A stretch of 64,000 nt of DNA from Gammaproteobacteria bacterium (GTDB lineage Bacteria > Pseudomonadota > Gammaproteobacteria > Ga0077536): positions 1-64,000 of the forward strand of contig JACQWY010000020.1 of the NCBI GenBank assembly GCA_016209015.1, in the 5' to 3' direction. The position numbers and the translations under genes were made by a program. Below are positions 36,733 to 39,181 of the stretch, in pieces (positions within the stretch are counted from its first letter, which is position 1; the number at the start of each line of letters is the position of its first letter). The notes beneath the pieces were generated by a model. The model was not told the DNA's origin, searched no databases, and saw only the letters and a list, made by a program, of their open reading frames with translations.

Positions 36733-37712
36733 TTACGGCGGGCCGCCGCGACGCCGCGCGAAGCCGAGACCGCCCGGCGCGCCGGCGGCGCGCCACAGGG
36801 CAGCGGGCAGCGGTACGGCGGATACGGCCCTGGGGTCGACGCGATAATCGTGTCCGCTCGCACTCGCCACCGTCATGCCGGCAGGCAGCATACCGAGCCA
36901 GATCCCCGCGGTGTTGCGCCCGTCGACGTAGCCGCCCCAGTCGAGCTTGCGATCGGCGTCGGTAATGTTCGCTTGTCCGATGATGCCGATGGCGGCGCCG
37001 ATCGTGAGCACGTCGCCAACATGCGCTGCGATCTCCAGATTGCTCGACGAGACCGAGTACCGGTTGAGGCCGAGACCGAGATCCGTCCGCGTCCAGGGGA
37101 AGCAACCGGATTCGGTGGAGAAGTTCTGCGGGAAACTCCCGTGATGTCGAAGCTCGCATACGCGCTGACGGAATGGAGCGAGTACGGCGGATAACCCAGC
37201 GGATAGTCTGAAGTGAACTCCGCGAGGAAGTTGAACGGGACCAGCACCGGAGTGCCGACGGCGAGTCCCGCGACGTTGACCGTGAGGTAGTCGGTGAATG
37301 ATGCGCCGACCGCTATTTAGACCGTGTTCGAGTTCGGCGCAAATGGCACGTTCGGTGCGAGGACTGCGGGTTGTGCAATCGCATGATCCGAGCCGTAGAC
37401 GCGCAATACGCCGGGATCGGCGGACGCGAATCCTGCCGCCGAGGCGCTGGTGAAGATCGCGTCCTGCAGCCCGGGGCCGATTCGCGTCGCGATGAACGAA
37501 CCCCCTTCGTCCTGCGCTTCGGCGTGTCCTGGCCCGTCGTGTCGCGTGACGGCGATCGGCACCCAGTCCGCCTGGGGAATCGCGCCCACACCGATTGCGG
37601 TGTAGGCGTTGACCGAAGCGTCGACGGTCGGGGTCGGCGCGGCTGCGGCAAATTTGACGGGCGCGACGATCAGCTCTGCGGCAAACAGCGCAGCGAGCAT
37701 GGGCTTGGCCAC
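36733..37712 (-). pseudogene. Broken secreted protein gene with a PEP-CTERM (VPLPA) tail
   Basis: Reading from a GTG at 37712 (GAAGGAAG site), the frame has a signal peptide (AKPMLAALFAAELIV) and a secreted-type domain. It is cut by an in-frame TAA at 37317-37319. The same frame continues, IAVGASFTDYLTVNVAGLAV, to a one-base shift near 37141, after which SFPQNFSTESGCFPWTRTDL follows in another frame. The end shows SAVPLPAALW and GFARRR, the sorting tail of PEP-CTERM proteins. The middle of that tail is no longer hydrophobic. I infer a decayed gene. Confidence 0.8.
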
Positions 37713-37857
37713 TTTGGCTTCCTTCTGGTTCGCGCGAAACGGGTGGAAAGGCCTCGCCTCGCCGTCATCACGGATCGAGCGAATCGTGGTCGTGCCACAG
37801 CGGGGAGCGGGCGACGCCGAGTGGCTCCATGAGCTCGAAACAGCCACGTCCGGTTAG

Positions 37858-38009
37858 GGAAGCTCTGAATAAGTCCATCCTGGACTTTTCAGAGCGCGGC
37901 CGGCAAGAAGCGTGGTTCTTGCCGGCCTCCCGTGAACAATTGCTTACGCCACTGTTCACGGCGGCACATCCCTGTGCCGCAGGAAGCTCTGAACTAATTC
38001 AGAGCTTCC
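37858..38009. mobile_element. 152-bp MITE with IS5-group ends and TTAG target duplications
   Basis: Perfect 13-base terminal inverted repeats GGAAGCTCTGAAT (37858-37870) and ATTCAGAGCTTCC (37997-38009) are flanked by TTAG on each side (37854-37857, 38010-38013). TTAG fits the YTAR target of the IS5 group, whose ends look similar. The interior is five back-to-back hairpins: 37862-37895, 37898-37927, 37931-37960, 37961-37980, 37981-38010. There is no coding capacity. Confidence 0.88.
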
Positions 38010-38013
38010 TTAG

Positions 38014-38320
38014 GCGCGGCTCCCACGGGAATAGCAAGGCGCGTGCCCGAGAATGCCGCGCGCATGCTGCGAACCGATTCGGACCGCGTGCGCGGTGGCT
38101 CGTTCGACGTAAGCTCACCGGGACATGGCGGCCGAGTGTGCAAATTACCGCACGTTGCTACGTTCCATATGCGCCGCCCCTCGCGCGACGAAGCGTGCTG
38201 CTCCGGCCGTCGAGGCGACGGCGACGCCAACGAAGGCCCCGCGCTGCTATCGTCCCGAGGGCGGCCGGACAGGGTGAGCGAAGATTGCGGGCTTTGCCCG
38301 AATGACGCGATGACGTGAAA
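38014..38320. other. Gene-free stretch
   Basis: Between the MITE and the pirin stop I see no convincing gene, promoter or repeat. The short frames here have shadow-like composition. The 37713-37853 segment on the other side of the MITE also holds nothing beyond the upstream region of the broken PEP-CTERM gene. Confidence 0.5.
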
Positions 38321-39181
38321 TCAGCCGAAGTGCCCCGCCTGATAGTCGAAGATCGCCTGCCGGATCTCCTGTTCGGAGTTCATGACGAACGGCCCGTACT
38401 GGGCGATCGACTCCTGCAGCGGACGGCCGGCGACGAGCAGGCATTTCGCCTCGCGCGTGGCTTCGATCGCGACCCCGTCGCGGTCCGCGTCGTTCGCGAG
38501 GATCGCCATGCGCTGCGCCGGCACGTCGGTGTCGCCGCTCCGCACCGCGCCGCGATAGGTGTAGAGGAAGGCGTTGTGTCCGGCGGGCAGCGGCTGCTCG
38601 AAACGCGCGCCGGCCGGCAGATGGATGTCGAGATACAGCGGCTGCGTCGCTTCGCGCACGACCGCACCCGCGACGCCGTGACTCTCGCCCGCGATGACGA
38701 CGACTTCGACGCCGGCCTCCGTCGTGTAACGCGGCAGCTCTGCCGCCGCGAAATCGCGATACCAGGGCGCGCACAGCTTGTCGCGGCCGGGCAGGTTCAA
38801 CCACAACTGGAAGCCTTCCATCGCGCCTTCCTCCTGCTGCGGGATTTCCGAGTGGACGACCCCGCGGCCGGCGGTCATCCATTGCACGCCGCCGTTCTCG
38901 AGCAGGCCCTCGTGGCCCGCGCTGTCGCGATGACGCATGCGCCCGGCGATCATGTAGGTGACCGTTTCGAAGCCGCGGTGCGGATGATCCGGAAAGCCCG
39001 CGATGTAATCCTCGGGATTCTCGGTGCCGAAGGCGTCGAGCATGAGGAAGGGGTCGAGGCGGCGCTGCAGGTCCTGGGTCAGGACGCGCGTGAGCTTCAC
39101 GCCCGCGCCGTCGGACGTGGCCATGCCCGTGACGAGGCGCTCGACGCGGCGGGGCTTGGAGATCGTGGCTGCTGGGCTCAT
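38321..39181 (-). CDS. Pirin family cupin protein
   Basis: 286 residues, two cupin domains. Metal ligands are His66 and His68 in HPHRGFET, His110 and Glu112 in VVHSE. Bacterial pirins have quercetin dioxygenase activity or regulatory roles; which applies here cannot be told. The neighbouring gene is a glutathione S-transferase on the same strand, 86 bases away, a combination often seen in redox-stress neighbourhoods. No signal peptide. The gene appears intact. Confidence 0.94.
   Translation of the reverse strand: MSPAATISKPRRVERLVTGMATSDGAGVKLTRVLTQDLQRRLDPFLMLDAFGTENPEDYIAGFPDHPHRGFETVTYMIAGRMRHRDSAGHEGLLENGGVQWMTAGRGVVHSEIPQQEEGAMEGFQLWLNLPGRDKLCAPWYRDFAAAELPRYTTEAGVEVVVIAGESHGVAGAVVREATQPLYLDIHLPAGARFEQPLPAGHNAFLYTYRGAVRSGDTDVPAQRMAILANDADRDGVAIEATREAKCLLVAGRPLQESIAQYGPFVMNSEQEIRQAIFDYQAGHFG

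Follow-up and report, generated by a model that had tools for sequence, protein, structure and literature searches.

Miniature inverted-repeat elements (MITEs) are usually regarded as relics of insertion sequences, and the 152-bp unit at 37858-38009 of the window (the whole 64,000-nucleotide stretch analysed here) raises the question of whether it is only that, or whether its row of hairpins is kept as an RNA. The unit lies between a pirin gene (38321-39181, minus strand) and an ORF without a Pfam family (37317-37847, minus strand). It contains no coding gene, the listed ORFs merely running through it mechanically, and its left end GGAAGCTCTGAAT and right end ATTCAGAGCTTCC form 13-bp perfect inverted repeats that TTAG adjoins on both sides. 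A sequence-only reading of the window had described it as a MITE with these repeats and duplications, five back-to-back hairpins and ends of the IS5 group, and its coordinates were confirmed exactly (Table 1).

Table 1. Positions of the element and its parts in the window
Feature	Position	Strand	Basis or remark
Whole MITE	37858..38009	minus (strand whose RNA fold looks selected)	ends, fold, copies, G-U pairs
Left target-site duplication TTAG	37854..37857	none	sequence
Right target-site duplication TTAG	38010..38013	none	sequence
Hairpin 1, with left IS5-type end	37862..37895	minus	loop CAGGATG at 37876-37882
Hairpin 2	37898..37927	minus	fold
Hairpin 3	37931..37960	minus	apical loop GTAA (GNRA type)
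Hairpin 4	37961..37980	minus	loop CAGGGATG (CANGGANG) at 37967-37974
Hairpin 5, near-perfect palindrome with right IS5-type end	37982..38009	minus	sequence, fold

Copies of the element and an IS5-group partner

The draft genome from which the window comes (5.7 Mb, 65 contigs) contains 42 near-complete copies with 91-100% identity (blastn; at least 135 query bases), plus fragments. Its end motif GGAAGCTCTGAATWA, allowing up to two mismatches, occurs 113 + 92 times compared with 1 + 3 times for a control pattern, and a count of 205 against 4 cannot be due to chance. Among the 74 places longer than 60 bp in those loci of this genome that were examined, 33 are full copies, 20 are cut near 134-143, nine are cut near 13-19 and 12 are of other kinds. 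Identical 4-bp flanks border 27 of the 31 distinct full copies, 26 of these flanks being YTAR and one TAAA, and the same is true of 55 of the 100 elements in a further sample from other genomes (the flank analysis covered 84 sequences, from which one chance match, L119:3227, was left out). The identification as a MITE, which the sequence-only reading had tied to the existence of further copies and would have given up if the ends had turned up in unrelated contexts without TTAG duplications, is thus borne out by many short, gene-free copies, 26 of 31 of them in YTAR duplications when distinct full ones are counted. On sequence grounds, 37858-38009 is shown to be a non-autonomous transposon that IS5-group transposases move in trans.

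We also note several peculiarities of the copies. Many in the same genome stop at the tip of a terminal hairpin (135-138 or 15-18) and continue into unique flank, with the second duplication absent; they are broken on the right (e.g., L010, L026, L030, L032, L033, L046, L051, L156, L157, L158 and L163) or on the left (e.g., L009, L167, L169, L174, L176 and L180). Similar broken copies occur in a relative, G008 (L143, L145 and L149), and contigs C12, C29, C50, C52 and C54 of the window's own assembly also end at such points. Hairpins may have disturbed sequencing or assembly at these points, or the copies may really have broken at the hairpin tips. At L003, L009, L023, L033, L174 and L181 the MITE adjoins GTAATCGGACG-like sequence, and some copies have GTCCGATTAG-like sequence on their other side, as though the MITE had inserted into the YTAR of a second repeat family that is palindromic. 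L155, L154 and L025 (G000:C59:6520-6795, C54:1-261 and C55:63188-63401) are head-to-tail dimers or partial repeats fused through a shared end, GGAAGCTCTGAA. At L030 (G000:C57:197318) the gene to the left of the copy apparently takes its stop codon from the CTAG of the copy, and directly after the copy comes a gene whose protein start seems to resemble PilU.

An IS5-family element with matching ends, which the sequence-only reading had assumed from the fit of TTAG to YTAR and from remembered ends, is present in related genomes. Across G008, itself a carrier of this kind of MITE, and a Thiotrichaceae MAG there are three elements (1151-1191 bp) that share such ends and are bordered by identical TTAG or CTAA flanks. 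Intact transposases at L184 and L186, with TTAG flanks, match the IS5-family model NF033581 at 334 and 337 bits (cut-off 140). L212 (G008:C48), an IS5-type element, is 1191 bp long, is bordered by CTAA at either end and has a transposase split over two reading frames. Of 12 further transposase loci, at which candidate end pairs were ranked by flank agreement, 11 have an end-like pair with identical 4-bp flanks and one has no pair. In the single-contig genome G303 the IS ends (GGAAACGCTGATTTATTC) and the local MITE ends (GGAAGCGCTGATTTATTC, a variant in which CGCTG replaces CTCTG) agree in 17 of 18 bases, and three IS copies there are flanked by CTAG, CTAA and TTAG.

Among 18 MITE carriers searched, 11 have an NF033581-like match, six of them above the cut-off; transposase matches are present in carriers such as G008, G167 and G303. 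The profiles PF01609, PF13586 and NF033581 found no cognate transposase in the window's own draft genome at E <= 0.001. This could mean that the copies there are stranded, or that the draft lacks the IS. A blastn search of 72,556 plasmid records gave no match. The possibility that the interior is an internally deleted IS was considered and is not supported, as IS and MITE are alike only across their terminal repeats (first/last 50 + 26 bases compared).

The five-hairpin fold, its spread and its strand

Folding of the 152 nt as RNA gives five consecutive hairpins, as the sequence-only reading had described, at -92.1 kcal/mol, compared with -46.6 +/- 4.3 for shuffled sequences (z = -10.7; none of 200 shuffles as good). 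Same-length homologues with 71-75% identity occur in G008 and G039 and weaker ones in G003 and G024, in a sample of 40 genomes of relatives. A pattern scan, whose pattern fixes TCC (GGA) in hairpin 1, found at least 74 stretches from at least 19 metagenome-type assemblies, most of them labelled Gammaproteobacteria or its groups. When a covariance model trained on 46 copies was run on 369 genomes of the class, 71 of them, representing 52 of 272 genera, had the full element; so did 46 of 398 genomes of a sample of the phylum (inferred from the named carriers to be Pseudomonadota); 43 of these 46 lie outside the class, 36 of them in one family, f207.

Of the elements folded, 82 of 83 in a first set and all 29 in a class sample are predicted to form five hairpins, as are all nine taken from beyond the class and 98 of a further 100. 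The first set comprises 83 distinct elements from G000, G008, G039 and 16 of the 19 assemblies of the pattern scan, and it overlaps with the class sample of 29 genomes, which also includes G008 and G039. The sequence of L223 equals that of L072, L220 and L290 are the same place, and 94 of the 100 further elements are distinct.

In an alignment of 54 distinct sequences (of 58 sources, stray matches excluded), fitted to a hand-written structure, 96.5% of cells pair, and slid controls fall to 34-48%. Fifty of the 58 pairs are changed on both sides, with 576 such cells compared with 165 +/- 11 in shuffles. RNAalifold, applied to a MAFFT alignment of 53 copies, recovered 34 pairs, 22 of them changed on both sides; it missed hairpin 3 because of a one-base alignment shift. 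The fold is thus conserved far beyond sequence, across genera and outside the class.

We compared the two strands by folding each and counting, away from helix ends, the G-U pairs that only one of them could form. (An earlier count with a crude hairpin parser retained only 28 of the 83 elements; its result, 18 v 9 with p = 0.12, was superseded by this one.) The minus strand has more such pairs than the plus strand in the first sample (45 v 15 distinct, p = 1e-4), in a second (27 v 13, p = 0.04; by context 25 v 13, p = 0.07) and in a third (122 v 46, p = 4e-9). Pooled over 215 elements and counted by context the values are 151 v 70 (p = 5e-8), or 93 v 45 for the inner hairpins (p = 5e-5); for the elements from outside the class, the asymmetry of the inner hairpins taken by themselves is not significant (30 v 20). 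Related copies are not independent, so these p values are guides only. Hairpin 3 has a GNRA cap in 58 of 120 elements when the minus strand is folded and never when the plus strand is; in a further sample the counts are 23 of 92 and 0. Because the G-U pairs favour it, the minus-strand RNA looks like the selected fold, and this is strongly supported. Of the roles that the sequence-only reading had guessed for the fold, action as an RNA is strengthened by the covariation, the wobble asymmetry and the loops described below; for binding of the internal fold by a transposase, evidence was not found.

GGA loops, genomic context and possible readers

Read on the minus strand, the apical loops of hairpins 4 and 1 are of the CANGGANG / CNGGANG kind, which is a CsrA/RsmA-type site. 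GGA stands at the apex of hairpin 4 in all 120 five-hairpin elements and in 89 of 98 further ones (missing in nine); hairpin 1 has it at its apex in 115 elements of the 120 and in 91 of the further 98 (missing in seven). Outside the class it is kept in hairpin 4 in 9 of 9 elements and in hairpin 1 in 8 of 9. At the apex of hairpin 3 it occurs in only 5 of the 120, and in hairpins 2 and 5 in none. These counts exclude the elements that do not fold into five hairpins (1 of 83 and 2 of 100) and are biased towards the motif, the first set being partly selected by a pattern with TCC in hairpin 1 and the model having been trained on such copies. All four letters occur at the base preceding GGA in hairpin 4, and the stems and GGA-adjacent bases vary. 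Hairpin 1 is itself of the CANGGANG type in several lineages, as CANGGATG, TTCANGGATGAA or ACATGGACGT. CAGGAUG is a motif of CsrB; a literature search for CsrB with CAGGAUG found nothing.

According to PMC4894983, CANGGANG in an apical hexaloop is a high-affinity target of CsrA/RsmE, and PMC6849547 reports it as an Rsm-binding motif. PMC4894983 also gives 18 nt as the optimal spacing of GGA loops for a dimer; the MITE has only two GGA loops, about 90 nt apart, which counts against binding by CsrA. At the gathering score no Rfam family matched in the window. With a relaxed threshold, RsmV aligns with hairpin 4 on the right strand and in register at 14.4 bits, far from its cut-off of 100, and ivy-DE (25 bits) and SprD (21.6 bits) match the same strand, both below cut-off. 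RsmV is a Csr/Rsm-type sRNA. All 28 carriers tested, including the window's own genome, have a CsrA gene, and this is only weak support since CsrA is expected in such taxa. One of the 28, G514, has nine CsrA-family matches, compared with one to three in each of the other 27.

Both neighbours of the window copy lie on the minus strand, so read-through would transcribe its GGA strand; a scan of 37650-38350, by consensus only, found no promoter-like and no terminator-like sequence. Over 304 loci the orientation relative to flanking genes shows no reliable preference. In tandem contexts the GGA strand is sense v antisense in 58 v 92 cases with lenient gene calls (p = 0.007) and in 58 v 74 with strict ones (pooled, p = 0.19). 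The first two samples gave 30 v 49 and 3 v 17, and an avoidance of GGA-sense insertion was considered and then dropped, as the third and largest new sample gave 25 v 27 and strict calls removed the lean.

If CsrA is the reader, the minus strand would be transcribed, presumably by read-through as no promoter was found, and its RNA should bind host CsrA/RsmA through hairpins 4 and 1. The RNA could then act as a dispersed CsrA decoy or, alternatively, as a CsrA-responsive module within the mRNA that contains the MITE, like one mobile RsmZ/CsrB-type fragment. Binding is inferred from the loops, and action as decoy or cis module is likewise an inference that no binding or expression data support. 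With that reservation, we put slightly better than even chances on the MITE being a mobile CsrA-binding RNA module of one or the other sort that works through hairpins 4 and 1.

Several other explanations must be weighed against this. The element could be an ordinary IS5-derived MITE with no RNA role, the hairpins of which matter only as DNA. Template switching within quasi-palindromes keeps arms complementary and would explain the covariation of the arms without selection; small duplications at hairpin tips (L018, L019, L021, L045, L162 and L181) show slippage, and the absence of an orientation preference and of a promoter-like site fits as well. We nevertheless think it unlikely, though by no means negligible, because it does not explain why GGA stays constant between variable neighbours in two of the five loops, why G-U pairs are in excess on one strand (151 v 70 contexts) and why GNRA loops are confined to the minus strand (58 v 0 of 120). 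Strand asymmetry and covariation, for their part, need only a folded single strand, which might be a structured RNA or ssDNA read by another protein, or a transcript stabilizer, with the GGA resemblance due to some other cause. G-T pairs are tolerated in DNA hairpins too, and the weak ivy-DE and SprD matches (25 and 21.6 bits, below cut-off, same strand) can be counted on that side. To this we give little credence, as the stems of hairpins 1 and 4 differ between lineages and yet lead to the same CANGGANG hexaloop, the specific Csr/Rsm pattern.

It also seems very improbable that function resides in the plus-strand transcript, whose loops carry TCC and which might, for instance, serve as a 3' stabilizer of upstream mRNAs. 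In tandem contexts, lenient gene calls made the plus strand the more frequent sense strand in the first sample (50 v 29) and in the second (15 v 4), but the third, largest independent sample gave 27 v 25, strict calls gave 74 v 58 pooled (p = 0.19), and both the wobble pairs and the GNRA loops speak for the minus strand.

Relation to known elements and RNAs

The element resembles IS5-derived MITEs in being short, multicopy and without a gene, and in its IS5-type ends, 4-bp YTAR duplications and matching IS5 transposases in relatives; it differs in an interior with no obvious IS likeness beyond the ends and in a five-hairpin fold kept with compensatory changes across genera and outside the class. 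The row of hairpins with apical GGA is like that of CsrB/RsmZ-type sRNAs that sequester CsrA (the Rfam clan of RsmV), and RsmV falls weakly in register with hairpin 4. Unlike those RNAs, the MITE is mobile, dispersed and present in many copies, usually has a pair of GGA loops in each unit, with three or four in some longer forms, has no promoter found near the window copy and belongs to no Rfam family at cut-off in the window.

Other repeats are more distant. Transcripts of Coxiella QMITEs and other prokaryotic MITEs form stable stem-loops, some linked to small RNAs, according to a review (PMC10969869) in which the word CsrA does not occur; these are alike in having structured transcripts, only predicted in our case, and differ from the present element, whose covariation and loop motifs point towards a single regulator. 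REP/BIME palindromes are also short multicopy hairpins, and by ORF calls the present copies are mostly intergenic; terminal repeats, YTAR duplications and IS5 transposases set the MITE apart from REPs, which go with REP-associated tyrosine transposases (PMC2817692). Searches by title or abstract opening, with incomplete coverage, found no literature linking MITEs with CsrA, RsmA or RsmZ, and the end sequence of the element did not occur in the open literature searched.

In this MITE family the fold is retained even as the sequence diverges between genera and outside the class; the bases that stay constant in two of its loops are those that a CsrA-type global post-transcriptional regulator reads. 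The conserved five-hairpin shape with CsrA-like loops suggests a mobile regulatory RNA rather than junk. If CsrA does bind, transposition would scatter CsrA sites through genomes, a direct route for rewiring the Csr/Rsm network, and the family would offer a testable case of a mobile element titrating a global regulator. A broader proposal, which we make tentatively and judge more apt to fail than to hold, is that this is a transposon lineage whose conserved cargo is Csr/Rsm RNA mimicry. It would be a mobile CsrA decoy, dispersed both within the window's class and beyond it, that gains and loses GGA hairpins and shifts the host's CsrA balance by copy number and insertion site. Among 11 longer or variant loci chosen by eye, one has no recognizable end and ten were folded; on the minus strand eight of the ten have three or four GGA loops and the other two have one and two, and three of the ten have TCC at an apex of the same strand.
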